Shown one piece after another: positions 1-6,221 of a stretch of 6,234 nucleotides of DNA. The position numbers and the translations under genes are program-made. The notes under the pieces are model-generated. The model ran no database searches, was not told the origin of the DNA, and was given only the letters and a program-made list of their open reading frames with translations. Origin of the DNA: Desulfobia sp. (lineage in GTDB: Bacteria; Desulfobacterota; Desulfobulbia; Desulfobulbales; SURF-16); the NCBI GenBank assembly GCA_030608985.1, contig JAUWDC010000078.1, positions 1-6,234 of the forward strand. Reading direction: 5' to 3'. Each line of letters begins with the position of its first letter. Position 1 is the stretch's first letter.

Positions 1-2674
1 CCCCAGCATCCAGGGCTGCCTCCATAACCCCAAAGGGGATGACTACCCCTTTGGGAGTACTAAAATCAGCATCTTTTTTTTTTGCCAATTCCTGAAGCCT
101 TCTAGCTCCATCTGCTTTTCCACCACCATTGCTCAGAGTTACCTTATCCAACTTAATAACCTGAGGACAATCAGCAATGAGCAGGTCGGGCATGCAAACC
201 TTCTTTGCTATTGGCAGCTTCTTTAAAGTTTTTGCAGAAGTCTTTTTAGCAAATGTTACAGAATCAGCTGTGGCCGTGAGGGTAAGATTTTTTCCGACTT
301 GTTGGCTAAGTTCTCTGAACAGCGACAAATCTTCAGCTACAACCAGCACCACTCCTTCCTGACGGGTCCTGATAGCAAGATGACTTAAGTGAGGCAGATG
401 ATGGGCAAGGATAATGCCGCCTACTCCTTTGGCAATGGTTTCATCACCTTCTGCCTTGTTGACCAGTACTATTTTTTGTCCTGCCTTGGAAGTGGGTAGG
501 TCAGTGAGGAATTCAGCTGCGTGCACTCTACCACTAGCAATGCCAGGGGCAATCACGTCCCAAGGCGGCAGTTTAGCAATTGTTCTTATATTCTTAAGGA
601 GCAAATCATTAAGCTTTGACAACTGGAAGATGAGATTGCCTCGGATATCGCCCTCGCAATAAAGTTCGATTGCCTGACTCGCCAATCCCAGGGAGCGGCC
701 CAATAGTATGGCTTTTTCAAAAAATAACCCCAACTCCTTTTCGCTATAGCTGTCAGCCAAACGCTGGCTCCGGGCAAGAGTAGCCTTGAGCCTCAACAAA
801 TGGCTGCGGACCTTAGGATCAAACTTGACACGCCAAGCTTTCAGTTCAGAGATTAAGGCCATACACTCTTCAGGTGCCATGCCGCTTAAGCGAATATTCT
901 CAACGTTTACAATTAAGGCTTCGAGAGCTTTCTGCCACGGCAGCTCCTCACAATTTTCAAACTCAGTAATCACTTCACTCAACAGAACAAAGGCATAATC
1001 CTCGAGTCCCAGGTCAGCTAAGCGCATATTCTGAGTATGAGCACTTGCATCGTGTTTTATCTGTTGAGACAATTTAGAACGCAGTTCTGTAATCTGCTGC
1101 AAGAGGGCAGATTGTTTACCAGCCGTAGCAAAACTCTCTTTTATCTCCAAAAAACGTTGCACACTTTGTGCAATTTTTTCGTCTTCCTGGCTTATTTTAT
1201 GGAGATTTTTCTCAAGGGAAGCGGCATTGAAGAACTCCTGCAGCTCTTGGTGAAATATCTTGAACTGTTCGACAAAGGGCCAGGAATAATCAGCACCTGG
1301 CGCAGTGATACGCCCAAGGATATTCTCAGATGTGGTCAAGTCTTCCGGTCCGGCGCATCGATGCAGTTTATTCTGCAGGGTATGCTTGATTTCCTTTTTC
1401 AACTCTGAGGGAATATCATTTCGATGGGCAATGTCTCTTATTCTGGTCAAAGGTTCTGCCCTGGTAAAAGCACGGTCATAGGAAGGGAGCCATGGATAAA
1501 TCTTACGTAGGATAAAGGCATTATCTGTGGAAGTATGGACAAGCAGCCGTTCCTGGATCTGTTGTGAGATGCGGGCATGGTGACTGGGTCTGAAATGGCG
1601 GCCATCTTCAGTGCAGACAATCTCACCGGTACCAAGAAAACGAAGGTAGATTGCCAGATAAATAAGATCATCATCAGTCAACTCAGACGTATCGTGCAGC
1701 AATTTATAAACTCCATCTAACTTCTGCCGCCAGCTTTGATGCTGCTGGTCCGATTCGATCAACCTGCTCGCAAACCGACCTTCATCACCTTCTGGTATAG
1801 GCAACTTCTTAGAAGATTTTTCTTTTGATGGAATCGGAGCCACTTGTTGACCTGTAGAGTCAGCAAGCATCTGAATTATCTTGAGCCGTGCGGTATTAAG
1901 CATGCTGGGAGGATCAGGCCACTGCTCGAGAATGATGGCGCCTTTAAAAGAGCGCCCAGCAAGTCTTTCGAAAAAAAAGCGCAGACCTTGGTCATTCTGA
2001 CCTGCCGGACCGGTAAAAATCACCAGATGGGCATCTTGATCACCATAATTTTCATGCAGATGAAGATGAATAAGCGGAACCCGGCTTTCAAGGCGGTCTA
2101 AAAAGCCAATATAATCATTAAGGGTGCTGGAACATAAATTGGCATGCCCCAGATCAAAACACATACCGACATGGTCCGAAGCAGTATCACTGACGTCTCT
2201 TAACAGGGCAAATAATTGATTAAATTCTTCCGGAGTCGTAAGTGGAGTATTCTCAATGGAGAGTTTCAGGCCGGCCTTCCTGCAATACTTAATAATTGGC
2301 AGTATGGCCTGAACATAATCTTCCAGGCCGTCTTCGGTCTCCAGGTGGATATTCAGCAGAGTAGCGCCAATATCCTTGGCAAAAGATATATTTTCACGAA
2401 AGATCTTTTTTCCCTCTGGCTTTAAAGGATTGGCCCACCATGGAGCATGCACCGATAATGCTATATCATTTGCCAGGGCCGTCTTTTTAATAGAGCGACG
2501 CATTTTTTTGGTTATGTCGTCCAGTGCCCAGCCGGCGCCAGACTCCTTTTTATCAGGAAACCACTCAAAGGCATCAAAATGATTTTCAACGGCATAGAGA
2601 AATGGATCAAGCGGCGTCAAAGCCATAAAGGCGGTCTGGTTGCCTATGCAGATGTTTTTGCTAGTTAGTGTCAT
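1..2674 (-). CDS. TIM-barrel / phosphoglucan, water dikinase (PWD-like) fusion, 3' end outside window
   Basis: The open frame has 891 codons with no stop before the left edge, so the C-terminus is missing. Residues 1-275 are a xylose isomerase-like / AP endonuclease 2 TIM barrel. Likely metal ligands are Glu141 (SIENT), Asp174 and His177 (CFDLGH), His205 or His207 (IHLHLHEN) and Glu250 (IILEQWP). A Lys/Pro-rich linker (about 276-295) leads into a PWD body: TEDGRHFRPSHHA (355-367), PLTRIRDIAHRNDIP (408-422), IKHTLQNKLHRCAGPEDL (429-446), VEQFKIFHQEL (468-478), the phosphohistidine loop LPHLSHLAIRTRQEG (760-774, His765), then NGGGKADG (849-856) and TPKGVVIPFG (873-882), which open the ATP-binding domain. 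Plant PWD has near-identical blocks but carries an N-terminal CBM20, absent here. Expected role: phosphorylation of C3 on glucan already phosphorylated by GWD. The role of the barrel is unknown. The start is fixed by an in-frame TAA three codons upstream of the Met. It is probably co-transcribed after gwd. The PWD and TIM-barrel assignments are strong; the activity is inferred. Confidence 0.92.
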   Translation of the reverse strand, partial: MTLTSKNICIGNQTAFMALTPLDPFLYAVENHFDAFEWFPDKKESGAGWALDDITKKMRRSIKKTALANDIALSVHAPWWANPLKPEGKKIFRENISFAKDIGATLLNIHLETEDGLEDYVQAILPIIKYCRKAGLKLSIENTPLTTPEEFNQLFALLRDVSDTASDHVGMCFDLGHANLCSSTLNDYIGFLDRLESRVPLIHLHLHENYGDQDAHLVIFTGPAGQNDQGLRFFFERLAGRSFKGAIILEQWPDPPSMLNTARLKIIQMLADSTGQQVAPIPSKEKSSKKLPIPEGDEGRFASRLIESDQQHQSWRQKLDGVYKLLHDTSELTDDDLIYLAIYLRFLGTGEIVCTEDGRHFRPSHHARISQQIQERLLVHTSTDNAFILRKIYPWLPSYDRAFTRAEPLTRIRDIAHRNDIPSELKKEIKHTLQNKLHRCAGPEDLTTSENILGRITAPGADYSWPFVEQFKIFHQELQEFFNAASLEKNLHKISQEDEKIAQSVQRFLEIKESFATAGKQSALLQQITELRSKLSQQIKHDASAHTQNMRLADLGLEDYAFVLLSEVITEFENCEELPWQKALEALIVNVENIRLSGMAPEECMALISELKAWRVKFDPKVRSHLLRLKATLARSQRLADSYSEKELGLFFEKAILLGRSLGLASQAIELYCEGDIRGNLIFQLSKLNDLLLKNIRTIAKLPPWDVIAPGIASGRVHAAEFLTDLPTSKAGQKIVLVNKAEGDETIAKGVGGIILAHHLPHLSHLAIRTRQEGVVLVVAEDLSLFRELSQQVGKNLTLTATADSVTFAKKTSAKTLKKLPIAKKVCMPDLLIADCPQVIKLDKVTLSNGGGKADGARRLQELAKKKDADFSTPKGVVIPFGVMEAALDAG
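74..83 (-). repeat. Run of ten A on the coding strand inside the PWD-like gene
   Basis: Ten consecutive T on the plus strand are read as A10 across codons for Ala-Lys-Lys-Lys (residues 864-867), between the glycine-rich NGGGKADG segment and the TPKGVVIPFG motif. The frame is correct on both sides, since conserved PWD residues follow. Such a run is prone to polymerase slippage and to sequencing error. Confidence 0.85.
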
Positions 2675-2679
2675 GTGTG

Positions 2680-2685
2680 CTTCTT
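2680..2685 (-). promoter_or_regulatory. Weak ribosome-binding site of the PWD-like fusion
   Basis: The coding strand reads AAGAAG, five bases (CACAC) before the ATG at 2674. It is a partial match to AGGAGG, and spacing is acceptable. It supports the chosen start, which is also the only one possible downstream of the in-frame TAA just upstream of it. Confidence 0.4.
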
Positions 2686-2692
2686 ATAGATC

Positions 2693-2706
2693 ATTAACCA
2701 TTAACC
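2693..2706 (-). repeat. 7-base tandem repeat (coding-strand unit GGTTAAT), 2 copies
   Basis: On the plus strand ATTAACC occurs twice back to back (2693-2699 and 2700-2706). It directly follows the 6-base repeat. This is probably a replication-slippage product; no function can be assigned. Confidence 0.8.
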
Positions 2707-2721
2707 CTTTACCTTTACCTT
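2706..2721 (-). repeat. 6-base tandem repeat (coding-strand unit TAAAGG), about 2.7 copies
   Basis: On the plus strand the unit CCTTTA occurs twice in full (2706-2711, 2712-2717) and then partly (CCTT, 2718-2721). On the coding strand this reads AAGGTAAAGGTAAAGG. The repeat abuts the GWD stop codon. Its purine-rich AAAGG core resembles a Shine-Dalgarno sequence but lies more than 30 bases from the next ATG, so it is unlikely to be the main ribosome site. Confidence 0.8.
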
Positions 2722-5700
2722 CACACCTGGGGCCTGGTCTGCACTATATAAAATTTACCATCGGCATAGGCGCCTTCAATATCCTGGGGAAAGCCATCCA
2801 TGGCATTTTCAGTTTCGATCCCTAACTTTGTAATATCTTGCAGAAATTTCTTTCTAAAATCCTCTTGCCATAAGAGAGGGCTATCAATATAGTCGGGCAG
2901 TTTTTCCAGAGGTGGTGCAAGCAAAACACTGTCATACAGACCTGCTCCAGCATACCCTTCCAGGTCTTCACCATTGGAGTCGGAGCGGATGATAAGGCCA
3001 CTGCCTTTCAGGGCAAGGCTTTTGCCAGGGTAGGAAATAATACTCGGTTTGAGGTTCTTCTTAACTTTCCGGCAGGTGAAACTCAAGGCGCGGCCTGGAT
3101 AATTACCGCTGCAGATTGTCTCTCCTAATCCTAAAACAATCTCACCATAAAGTTCATTCTTGTCATTGGTGAAGGGATTGGCGGTATGGATCACAAAGGC
3201 GAATTGGGCATCAACAACTTCCTGAATAAGAACTGCCATGTGGAGTTTATCATGGCCAATATTCCATTTTTTTCGACTCCAATAGGCCCGCTCATTCCAC
3301 TTTGAAGCCCAGACATGCTTAATACGCGACCAGAGGGTCATCCAGTCATCCGGCCAAGGCATCCCCTCATCCGCCATTGCATGCTTTAGGGATTTAGGAA
3401 GATCAGGTGGCGGGATAAGCTCATTAATGCATTGACGAAGTTTAAGGAGATTTTGTAGTGGATTCTGGTCAATCACTTGTTCCAGCTTATTATAACCTTG
3501 GAGTAAGGCCTTGTTCTCTTTCATTGCCAGCACCCTCTCACAGACGCAAAAAGGGATGGCCACCGACCGAGGTATCCGGACCCAGGCAGGTATTTTGTTT
3601 TTGAGCTGCAGTAGTAGCAGGGACTTGCCGCCAACAAGTTTACTGGTGAAATCTTTACTTGCTACAGCGTACCTGGCAAAAGAAACTCGACGGCAGCTGA
3701 CAGCCGGCATCTTCATTTCTTTTATGTTTTCTTCCTTGGCAACCCCACTCTTGTCTAACTGATATTCAACATCTCCGGACGCATTTACTGTCAGTTTTAT
3801 ACCCTGGCCTTGGTATGACTTTAGCTCATCAATTATTTTGGCTTCATAGCAGGTAGCAAAGAGGATTTTCGCATTCCTTGACCGGACCGAGACATGGGAG
3901 AGGATATCCACTTGGGCAGGGGTAATAACAGCAACAACACCGTCGGGGACCTCTTCCTCACCTTTCAGATTATCGGTCAAAATTACCGTAGGTTTTTTAA
4001 ACACCTTATCCTGAATAGTAGACAAGTCCGCAATTTCCAGCTGACCTAATGCTTGGTTTCGGCTGATTATCTGCCAGCTGCCAAGATCGGCTGCCTCCCT
4101 TAATATTGGCTCAATGTGGCGGAGCAGAATGGATAATACATAGGCTGAACTGCCGCGGACCACTTCCTGGTTAAACAATTCAATGGTCCAATCCTCAGCC
4201 TTAAAAGCACTGCCAAGATGCTCTGCTTTAGGCTGCAGAAGTGCGTAATAATAGTCGATAAAGTTGCCCAGGGCTGCAGTAATCCGATCGAGCACAGAAC
4301 GGGCATGGAGAACCCAATCCCTGTCAAACTGCCTTGACTTTTGCAGCTGCTGCCAATGGTGAAAACAGCTAACTAAATCTTCATCTTCATGGGAGATGAT
4401 GAGATTATCAAGCACCAGGCCGATAAGTTCAACCAGGTGTTCCTTTCTGAATTCAAGATGGATACGGCGCTCAACCACTACCCTGAGAAACTCCTCCAGG
4501 GCCAGATCCAGGTAAAGTATGTCACGAATACCTTGAGTATCAAGGTTTTGATCCAGACGATCAATTAAGCCACGGCGCAATCCGGTAATAGAACGAACAT
4601 GGTCTGTAACTTCGATATTCGTATCATCACGACCATGATAGAAATGCCACAACCAGTCCCGCAGATGGTCGTCCAGGCAATGGCCGGCAGCTTCGGCTGC
4701 AGCAAACAGGTCGGTGGCAGAATGTACAGATTTCAAAAGTTTGAGGTATTTTTCAAAATCATGGATTAAGCCGTCCTTGATATGATGAGCAAAATCCGGA
4801 TTGGTCACTATTGGTCGTTCAAAATTCTCCAGTCGTTCTTTGGTTACACCACCTTCAGAAAGAGTATTATAAAATACGCCTAAGTCTCCGTTACTGCGAA
4901 GAAATGACAAATACGCCTCACAGATAACAATATCGTCCGGGGTTGCGTTATTGTGGAGCTTCTGATGCCATTCCTCCATAAAATGACCAGTAACTTCTTT
5001 GATCTTATGGCGATGCATAATGTGGAGAATATCATCACGAATACGCTGGCCCTTGCCGCCTTCACCACCCCGGCCAACTGTGGATAAAATAAGGCGAATT
5101 ATTTCACGGCCAGGTGGGGTGCTGTGCTGGTAATGGTCTGCCAGTTTCAAGGTGAGGCGTTTCTGGGCATGACTCAGTTCCCGGGGTTGGGTATTGTAAT
5201 TGCGCTGCCAGTCAAGCTGCCGAATTGCCGAAAAGCGCAGCCATACAAATAGCAGGGCCTGGCCCTGTAAATCCTTGTCTAGGCGGTCTAACAGGTCATA
5301 GCACAGTTTAAATCGGTGCATCAGGGTCCATGAATTGCGTCCTGTTTCTACCTGAATAATCTGGTCAGCCACATCTGCAAGTTCTGCCGATGCAAAAACA
5401 GCTTCCTCATGGGGTGGGCTTTTTACCGGGATAAACATATTGTTCCGCCCAGATTTCAACCACTGTCCAGTGTCAGGTTGATGCAGTACAAAAGCCAATC
5501 CCAGCACCGCCTCGTTTTCCTGCCATTCAAATTGCAGCGTATTAATACCATCTCCCCAGACAAAGGGGCTCTGTACCGACTTATCATCTATGGCGATCGT
5601 GCCTTGAGGTTTGAGCGATTCTGGGGGTAAAAGCCAATCATATCGTGACTTTTTGGCTATCCCCCAGTGTAAAACCAGGCCTTCAGGGATATCGGTGAAG

Positions 5701-6221
5701 AGTTTAATCAGATAACGGTCCTTGGCCAAAATCACGGCAACAGCCAATTCCATGCCGGAAAGGTGATAGTTTTGCTGAAAAACAACATTCTTTTCTTCAA
5801 GTTCTTTGCTTAAGGCCTGGTTTGGAGAAAGTAATGACTCGCCTGATTGGGGCAGTCTTATAAAGTAATTTTTACCGTTGTTATTATCCCAGTAGTTTTG
5901 TTCAGGAAAAAAGAGGACAAAAGAAAGTCCGGAGAAGTTACGGTCCGACGTAAATTTAATCTGGATTTGGCTATCAGTCTTTTTGGAGACAAAGGGAGTC
6001 TGGACAGCATCATGGCTTACAGCATTGGTTTTAGATGGCCAGCTCGCCGCAGGAGGAAGCTGCCATGCTGTTTTTTGATCGCGGACTACGCCCCAGTGCA
6101 GCAAACATTTTTTCTTGCTGTTTATCACTAATGTCACCACCAGGGCCTTGGCAGTTTTACGTCTTTCGATCTGCAGATTAAGACCTTTTGATAATTTCAG
6201 TACTTCGGTTGATTTCTTCAT
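2721..6221 (-). CDS. gwd: Alpha-glucan, water dikinase (GWD1-like), complete, 1166 residues
   Basis: Predicted to move the beta-phosphate of ATP through a histidine onto C6 of glucosyl residues in an insoluble alpha-glucan, releasing AMP and Pi. The product is likely cytosolic, with no signal or transit peptide. Seen in order: CBM45-like repeat 1 (about 20-125; LHWG at 41-44, Trp53, TPFV 75-78); CBM45-like repeat 2 (about 155-268; LHWG at 184-187, Trp196, SPFV 218-221); the GWD central region with STVGRGGEG (380-388), QRIRDDIL (392-399) and MEEWHQKLHNNATPDD (415-430); the phosphohistidine domain with LSHVSVRSRN (774-783, His776); and the ATP-binding domain with LVGGKS (862-867), ASKWNERAY (972-980), IIRSDSNGEDLEGYAGAG (1077-1094) and QDIEG...QTRPQV (1146-1166). 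Known plant GWD1 matches along this whole length, including the C-terminus; plant precursors are longer, mostly at the N-terminus. The Met start is preceded by AAGAA five bases upstream. Only 13 bases lie upstream, so an earlier in-frame start cannot be excluded. Oddity: the redox motif CFATC reads LFATC (787-791). It is first of the pair, with the PWD-like gene 46 bases downstream. Confidence 0.95.
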   Translation of the reverse strand: MKKSTEVLKLSKGLNLQIERRKTAKALVVTLVINSKKKCLLHWGVVRDQKTAWQLPPAASWPSKTNAVSHDAVQTPFVSKKTDSQIQIKFTSDRNFSGLSFVLFFPEQNYWDNNNGKNYFIRLPQSGESLLSPNQALSKELEEKNVVFQQNYHLSGMELAVAVILAKDRYLIKLFTDIPEGLVLHWGIAKKSRYDWLLPPESLKPQGTIAIDDKSVQSPFVWGDGINTLQFEWQENEAVLGLAFVLHQPDTGQWLKSGRNNMFIPVKSPPHEEAVFASAELADVADQIIQVETGRNSWTLMHRFKLCYDLLDRLDKDLQGQALLFVWLRFSAIRQLDWQRNYNTQPRELSHAQKRLTLKLADHYQHSTPPGREIIRLILSTVGRGGEGGKGQRIRDDILHIMHRHKIKEVTGHFMEEWHQKLHNNATPDDIVICEAYLSFLRSNGDLGVFYNTLSEGGVTKERLENFERPIVTNPDFAHHIKDGLIHDFEKYLKLLKSVHSATDLFAAAEAAGHCLDDHLRDWLWHFYHGRDDTNIEVTDHVRSITGLRRGLIDRLDQNLDTQGIRDILYLDLALEEFLRVVVERRIHLEFRKEHLVELIGLVLDNLIISHEDEDLVSCFHHWQQLQKSRQFDRDWVLHARSVLDRITAALGNFIDYYYALLQPKAEHLGSAFKAEDWTIELFNQEVVRGSSAYVLSILLRHIEPILREAADLGSWQIISRNQALGQLEIADLSTIQDKVFKKPTVILTDNLKGEEEVPDGVVAVITPAQVDILSHVSVRSRNAKILFATCYEAKIIDELKSYQGQGIKLTVNASGDVEYQLDKSGVAKEENIKEMKMPAVSCRRVSFARYAVASKDFTSKLVGGKSLLLLQLKNKIPAWVRIPRSVAIPFCVCERVLAMKENKALLQGYNKLEQVIDQNPLQNLLKLRQCINELIPPPDLPKSLKHAMADEGMPWPDDWMTLWSRIKHVWASKWNERAYWSRKKWNIGHDKLHMAVLIQEVVDAQFAFVIHTANPFTNDKNELYGEIVLGLGETICSGNYPGRALSFTCRKVKKNLKPSIISYPGKSLALKGSGLIIRSDSNGEDLEGYAGAGLYDSVLLAPPLEKLPDYIDSPLLWQEDFRKKFLQDITKLGIETENAMDGFPQDIEGAYADGKFYIVQTRPQV

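Follow-up and report, generated by a model that had tools for sequence, protein, structure and literature searches.

Predicted plant-type starch phosphorylation in one bacterial operon

What does a bacterium do with a gene pair resembling the starch-phosphorylating enzymes of plants? The question is raised by a 6234-base stretch of DNA from Desulfobia sp. (the window), which is the whole of contig G000:C86; the host bin G000 has 1.69 Mb and is 70.5% complete. Two minus-strand open reading frames (ORFs), A and B, occupy the window. ORF A encodes a glucan, water dikinase (GWD), and ORF B encodes an endonuclease-IV-type TIM barrel (TIM-A) fused to the core of a phosphoglucan, water dikinase (PWD). 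We propose, with a probability of roughly one half, that GWD and TIM-A–PWD drive a phosphorylation–dephosphorylation cycle on the host's own storage alpha-glucan, with the barrels removing the phosphate. The observations behind this proposal are the sequences, domains, invariant histidines, ligand positions, gene order and co-occurrence. The features of the window are as follows.

2721..6221, minus strand: ORF A, bacterial GWD, 1166 amino acids (aa), complete (ORF list, domain profiles, 20-row alignment)
5853..6194, minus strand: first of two N-terminal Ig-like/CBM45-type stretches (PF23166), residues 10–123
3759..4079, minus strand: GWD phosphohistidine domain (PF22973; Pfam scan)
3894–3896, minus strand: predicted phosphate-carrying His776 of GWD, invariant in 20/20 aligned rows
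2724..3332, minus strand: GWD C-terminal ATP-binding region (PF01326), three stretches, best 965–1041, limits approximate (Pfam scan)
2675..2720, no strand: intergenic gap between ORF A and ORF B, 46 bases (coordinates)
2..2674, minus strand: ORF B, N-terminal TIM-A barrel and PWD-type dikinase core in one protein, running off the contig
1844..2674, minus strand: TIM-A, endonuclease-IV-type TIM barrel, residues 1–277 (PF01261 and fold matches)
2..1747, minus strand: PWD-type core without the ATP-binding domain, upper limit approximate (alignment to full-length relatives)
236..562, minus strand: PWD phosphohistidine domain (PF22973; Pfam scan)
380–382, minus strand: predicted phosphate-carrying His765 of PWD, invariant in 20/20 aligned rows

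Two dikinases and an unexpected barrel

The original prediction described two uninterrupted minus-strand genes 46 bases apart, a full-length GWD1 and a PWD. The spacing and the open frames agree with the ORF coordinates. ORF B is incomplete, as it runs off the contig end with 891 codons visible of a full length of about 1155. The assignment of ORF A is borne out by its domains. PF23166 (Ig_N_CWD1) is found in two stretches (1.2e-48, 164.7 bits against a cut-off of 27), together with PF22973 (GWD1_pHisD; 4.1e-35, 120.3 bits) and PF01326 (PPDK_N; 1.7e-24, 87.1 bits). Residues 283–711 match the solved central region of plant GWD (9ha9_A, E 2.8e-93). The residue alignment to the solved plant chain was made for P0001; identity to this chain over the central domain is 39% for the window and at most 44% for other bacteria. 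Judged by its sequence, ORF A is a full-length bacterial GWD, which would transfer the beta-phosphate of ATP to C6. It shares with plant GWD1 (EC 2.7.9.4) the tandem N-terminal Ig/CBM45-type, central, phosphohistidine and ATP-binding domains, but its first domain begins at residue 10 and the gene sits in an operon with TIM-A. The motif CFATC of plant GWD reads LFATC in ORF A, and because of this replacement the plant redox disulfide is predicted not to form.

The match of ORF B to PWD holds for its core. All three motif blocks quoted in the original prediction (QNKLHR.AGPEDL and LPHLSHL among them), which are presumably diagnostic, are present, and PF22973 is found at residues 705–813 (5.3e-20, 71.6 bits). 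The match does not extend to residues 1–277, which form a TIM barrel of the xylose-isomerase/endonuclease-IV type (PF01261, 1.4e-21). The Pfam and structure matches of both ORFs are far above chance. The full-length cluster P0121, 99% identical to ORF B, is 1155 aa long and carries PF01261, PF22973 and PF01326; therefore 264 residues of ORF B, including the ATP-binding domain, lie beyond the contig. CBM20 was not found in ORF B by the Pfam scan and is absent from the precomputed domains of its 120 listed homologues. Because the TIM barrel stands in the place of the CBM20 of plant PWD (EC 2.7.9.5), we use the term PWD-type core rather than plant-type PWD. The core motifs and the phosphohistidine are shared with the plant enzyme, as is the ATP-binding domain in full-length relatives, and the core is predicted to phosphorylate C3 of pre-phosphorylated glucan. 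A further difference from plant PWD is that the bacterial protein sometimes ends in a second, C-terminal barrel, TIM-B. Triple fusions of TIM-A, PWD and TIM-B are P0201, P0207, P0213, P0215, P0222 and P0236.

Bacterial origin and distribution

Could the contig be eukaryotic contamination, or the product of a recent algal gene transfer? Such an origin would suit the rarity of GWD in the host phylum. GWD1_pHisD is above the cut-off in only 4/395 genomes of a Desulfobacterota sample, and within the host family (22 genomes) GWD is present in G000 only; the other 21 genomes yielded nothing beyond short matches to the ATP-binding region. The legend of a figure published in 2018 also allows that some bacteria could have gained GWD through lateral gene transfer (PMC6260743). 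The operon structure and the uninterrupted frames speak against both possibilities, and so do the homologues. The protein searches scored the 7993 (ORF A) and 7992 (ORF B) candidates with the most shared words and gave at least 2195 and at least 1264 homologues, respectively. Those listed are 48–81% identical, and every named organism among them is bacterial (Deltaproteobacteria/Thermodesulfobacteriota, Nitrospirota, Scalindua, Anammoxibacter), the others being environmental samples. The composition of the window is within the range of its own bin: its GC content is 0.46 (0.42–0.48 in the bin), and its tetranucleotide correlation with eight own contigs is 0.80–0.83, those contigs reaching 0.73–0.91 among themselves. 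A tree was built in which 195 bacterial GWD cores, thinned to 72, were combined with nine PWDs and a single plant GWD. That plant sequence falls outside all 72 bacterial rows (97/91; bootstrap unsettled, one plant row), and the phyla are intermixed among the bacterial rows. The tree speaks against a recent plant-to-bacteria transfer in these bacteria; it does not settle the origin. The contig was thus found to be bacterial, as the operon had appeared to be, and contamination or recent transfer is highly improbable.

When genomes were scanned with the GWD alignment, 133 relatives came up; the 80 best make up loci L029–L108, many of them in draft metagenome-assembled genomes. The 80 loci come from about eight phyla (Nitrospirota, Desulfobacterota, Planctomycetota, Verrucomicrobiota, Pseudomonadota, Myxococcota, Acidobacteriota and Nitrospinota), and the carriers include anammox and magnetotactic bacteria. 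In a Nitrospirota sample, GWD1_pHisD is above the cut-off in 23/295 genomes; this sample and the Desulfobacterota sample were each drawn around one carrier. All 23 Nitrospirota genomes have a GWD-level match (at least 114 bits), and ten have a second, lower match (at most 98 bits). The PWD profile was applied to six of these ten, of which five are PWD. These data are consistent with the dependence of the PWD step on GWD that the original prediction described for plants. The sixth lower match, in G447 (L090), is a protein of 1119 aa with no PWD-profile match at E 1e-60.

Each dikinase is usually accompanied by a barrel

The linkage of TIM-A to GWD was assessed in 66 of the 80 loci, after exclusion of three without a GWD ORF at the threshold and 11 with fewer than 900 bases downstream. 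TIM-A lies directly downstream of GWD in 42/66. In 22 of the 42 it is fused to PWD, four of these proteins being short of full length (422–720 aa); in 17 it is a separate gene (268–317 aa as called) with no PWD in the locus, and in three a separate gene with PWD in the locus. One of the 24 non-adjacent loci, L082, has TIM-A farther along, and a whole-genome search located TIM-A elsewhere in the genome for 18 of the remaining 23, once as a fragment. TIM-A therefore accompanies GWD in 61/66 testable loci or genomes. In the Desulfobacterota sample, with at most two candidates per genome scored, TIM-A was found among the rows listed in the same 4/395 genomes as GWD1_pHisD. In the Nitrospirota sample it was found in 21/23 GWD genomes and 0/272 others, some of the positives (G416, G421, G425 and G433 among them) being rows of the search profile. 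Pooled, the samples give 25/27 genomes with GWD against 0/663 without it. The Fisher p values of 1e-9 (Desulfobacterota) and 4e-30 (Nitrospirota) ignore relatedness. Because of this co-occurrence in the loci and in both phylum samples, TIM-A belongs with GWD, not with PWD alone. TIM-A is present in all 120 listed PWD homologues, for which the query itself carried TIM-A, and PWD genes without a barrel exist (L083, L099, G416). TIM-B tracks PWD (22/25 against 0/25).

The N-terminal position of TIM-A in PWD and the frequency of fusion among adjacent cases would also suit a non-catalytic stand-in for the CBM20 of plant PWD, one that binds glucan or aids assembly and recruits the dikinases. We consider this improbable, since the 17 separate genes occur without PWD in the locus and a module that only binds would not be expected to keep an invariant set of nine ligand residues, described below.

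Several loci deviate from the common arrangement. TIM-A was not detected in the Nitrospirota genomes of L090, L091, L092 and L096, where GWD is present. In L030, L060, L087 and L105, from one Nitrospirota group, GWD adjoins a rod-shape cluster (MreB, PBP2, FtsW/RodA) that runs in the opposite direction, and TIM-A is elsewhere in the genome (in L105 as a fragment only). L055:10001-14063 has a shorter GWD frame (961 aa) followed by about 1.2 kb before TIM-A–PWD, as if interrupted.

Predicted metal site of the barrels

TIM-A belongs to the AP endonuclease 2 superfamily, as matched by superfamily profile and fold; TIM-B matches no Pfam family. The nine three-metal positions of endonuclease IV are all kept in 139/140 TIM-A rows, the remaining row being gapped, and in 119/120 TIM-B rows. 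The predicted ligands in TIM-A are H76, H110, E141, D174, H177, H203, D214, H216 and E250, mapped from residue alignments to structures, E250 only via 3wqo. TIM-A shares the superfamily, the fold and all nine positions with endonuclease IV, and the superfamily and fold with the cobamide phosphodiesterase CbiR, but it differs from both in its linkage to GWD and PWD genes and in scoring far under the curated cut-offs. It was rejected as a DNA endonuclease IV (PRK01060, 19.8 bits against 244) and as CbiR (NF041277, 28.8 bits against 105). Single endonuclease-IV-like proteins of 266–294 aa resembling TIM-A occur in the host family (L016–L026, L028); they have Gln at one of the nine positions and are otherwise TIM-A-like.

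In the fold matches, endonuclease IV ranks below 3wqo and sugar 3-epimerases, and PF01261 is named xylose isomerase-like. With the dikinases acting as proposed, the barrels could accordingly be isomerases, epimerases or lyases of phosphorylated glucose units or oligosaccharides freed from the glucan. This is a less likely reading. Sugar 3-epimerases have a single-metal site with four ligands, which differs from the nine-position set that is complete in nearly every TIM-A row, and one barrel per dikinase is easier to reconcile with phosphate removal from defined positions than with a downstream step common to both.

Glucan metabolism genes near the dikinases

The fullest gene order is GWD, TIM-A–PWD, TIM-B, a GH13/hDGE-type amylase, DUF4912, a GH57 branching enzyme and GlgA. 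It is complete in L052 and lacks GlgA within the locus in L076 and L084; in L034, TIM-B directly after PWD was missed by ORF calling and found by a later search. The cluster representatives were named GlgA (NF001905, 861 bits against 560), GH57 branching enzyme, GH13 with hDGE_amylase, MalQ, GlgB, isoamylase-like with ISOA1-3_C, and GH57-DUF3536. Among the 80 loci, GH13 is represented in 16, branching enzyme in 12, GlgA in 11, MalQ in five, DUF4912 in five and the isoamylase-like cluster in three. Counting clusters with at least three members plus the GH13 fusion cluster, a glucan-enzyme cluster is present in 33/72 loci having at least three other ORFs. The storage-glucan setting suggested for the pair is thus seen in part of the relatives, which carry GlgA, branching enzyme, GH13, isoamylase-like or MalQ genes, and not in the other 39/72 loci. 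Bacterial glycogen operons contain glgA, glgB, glgC and glgP. Part of the GWD loci resemble them in their GlgA, branching-enzyme and debranching-type neighbours, and differ in adding two dikinases, two barrels, DUF4912 and GH57-type branching enzymes.

In L034, L052, L055, L076 and L084, a gene for a DUF4912 protein lies between the GH13 gene and the one for the GH57 branching enzyme. A 781-aa protein joins TIM-B to the GH13/hDGE-type protein in L084:16460-18805, and L094:16507-18855 is joined likewise, judged by size and position.

The loci without a recurrent glucan-enzyme cluster would fit a system acting on an imported or other polymer. So would the host bin, in which canonical GlgA was not seen by a PF08323 profile search. 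A PF08323 protein occurs in 26/26 genomes tested, and the profile also matches in 12/14 controls and other glycosyltransferases; the sole match in G000 adjoins chorismate synthase and shikimate kinase. Against a foreign polymer, the pair has GlgA-cluster, branching-enzyme and isoamylase-like genes close by in several phyla, and also in L053 and L055, which are more closely related to the window. In L053, a GlgA-cluster gene and an isoamylase-like gene precede GWD. L055 (Desulfobulbaceae) has isoamylase-like, GlgA-cluster, branching-enzyme, DUF4912 and GH13 genes that are oriented divergently to GWD, TIM-A–PWD and TIM-B. Moreover, anammox and magnetotactic carriers are not obvious starch eaters. 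Action on a polymer other than the storage glucan therefore appears unlikely.

A SEX4/LSF-like dual-specificity phosphatase, named as a possible neighbour in the original prediction, did not turn up: the HCxxGxxR-type motif occurs in 0/863 ORFs of the 80 loci, and DSPc was undetected in 12/26 operon genomes. Elsewhere in G000, L111:2851-3912 encodes a 353-aa DSPc-like protein that carries an additional C-terminal half; upstream of it, L111:4079-6682 encodes an 867-aa protein that is PEP-synthase-like by eye. This pair adjoins an NtrC-like regulator and is possibly a separate dikinase/phosphatase unit.

Proposed cycle

In the storage-glucan cycle that we favor, GWD would move the beta-phosphate of ATP via His776 to glucosyl C6, and PWD would move phosphate via His765 to C3. 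Phosphorylation would loosen ordered glucan chains and give access to the amylase-, isoamylase- and GH57-type enzymes encoded near the genes in relatives. TIM-A, predicted to be metal-dependent, may take the phosphate off the GWD product. For the PWD product this may fall to TIM-B, whose gene closely follows PWD in relatives and probably also in this host, past the contig edge. The reactions, the phosphorylated positions, the metal binding and the phosphatase role of the barrels are all predictions. SEX4 and LSF2 are cysteine-based dual-specificity phosphatases, which the metallo-barrels would replace. The proposed role is like that of SEX4, LSF2 and laforin in removing C6 and C3 phosphate with one activity per dikinase product, and unlike in relying on an endonuclease-IV-type fold with a predicted metal site.

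A more far-reaching version, which we offer tentatively, is that several phyla run a starch phosphate switch parallel to that of plants. It would pair GWD with a C6-specific TIM-A and PWD with a C3-specific TIM-B, the barrels being functional analogues of SEX4 and LSF2 derived from the endonuclease IV fold. The substrate would be an ordered, starch-like storage glucan, synthesized by GlgA and GH57 branching enzyme together with, in some bacteria, a plant-type isoamylase, and the glucan dikinases would predate plants rather than being borrowed from them.

JGI annotation already uses the names GWD and PWD for bacterial homologues, and many listed homologues of ORF B are annotated as phosphoglucan,water dikinase. 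No report of the operon, the barrel fusion, TIM-B or the barrel partners was found in the literature covered, which mostly leaves out subscription papers. If the barrels are phosphatases, they would represent a new candidate class of glucan phosphatases, with gene pairing as a hint to their specificity. A bacterial gene set with both dikinases bears on the source of the plant starch-degradation machinery. If the predicted roles are true, the storage sugar polymers of these bacteria would be under a plant-like phosphate switch.
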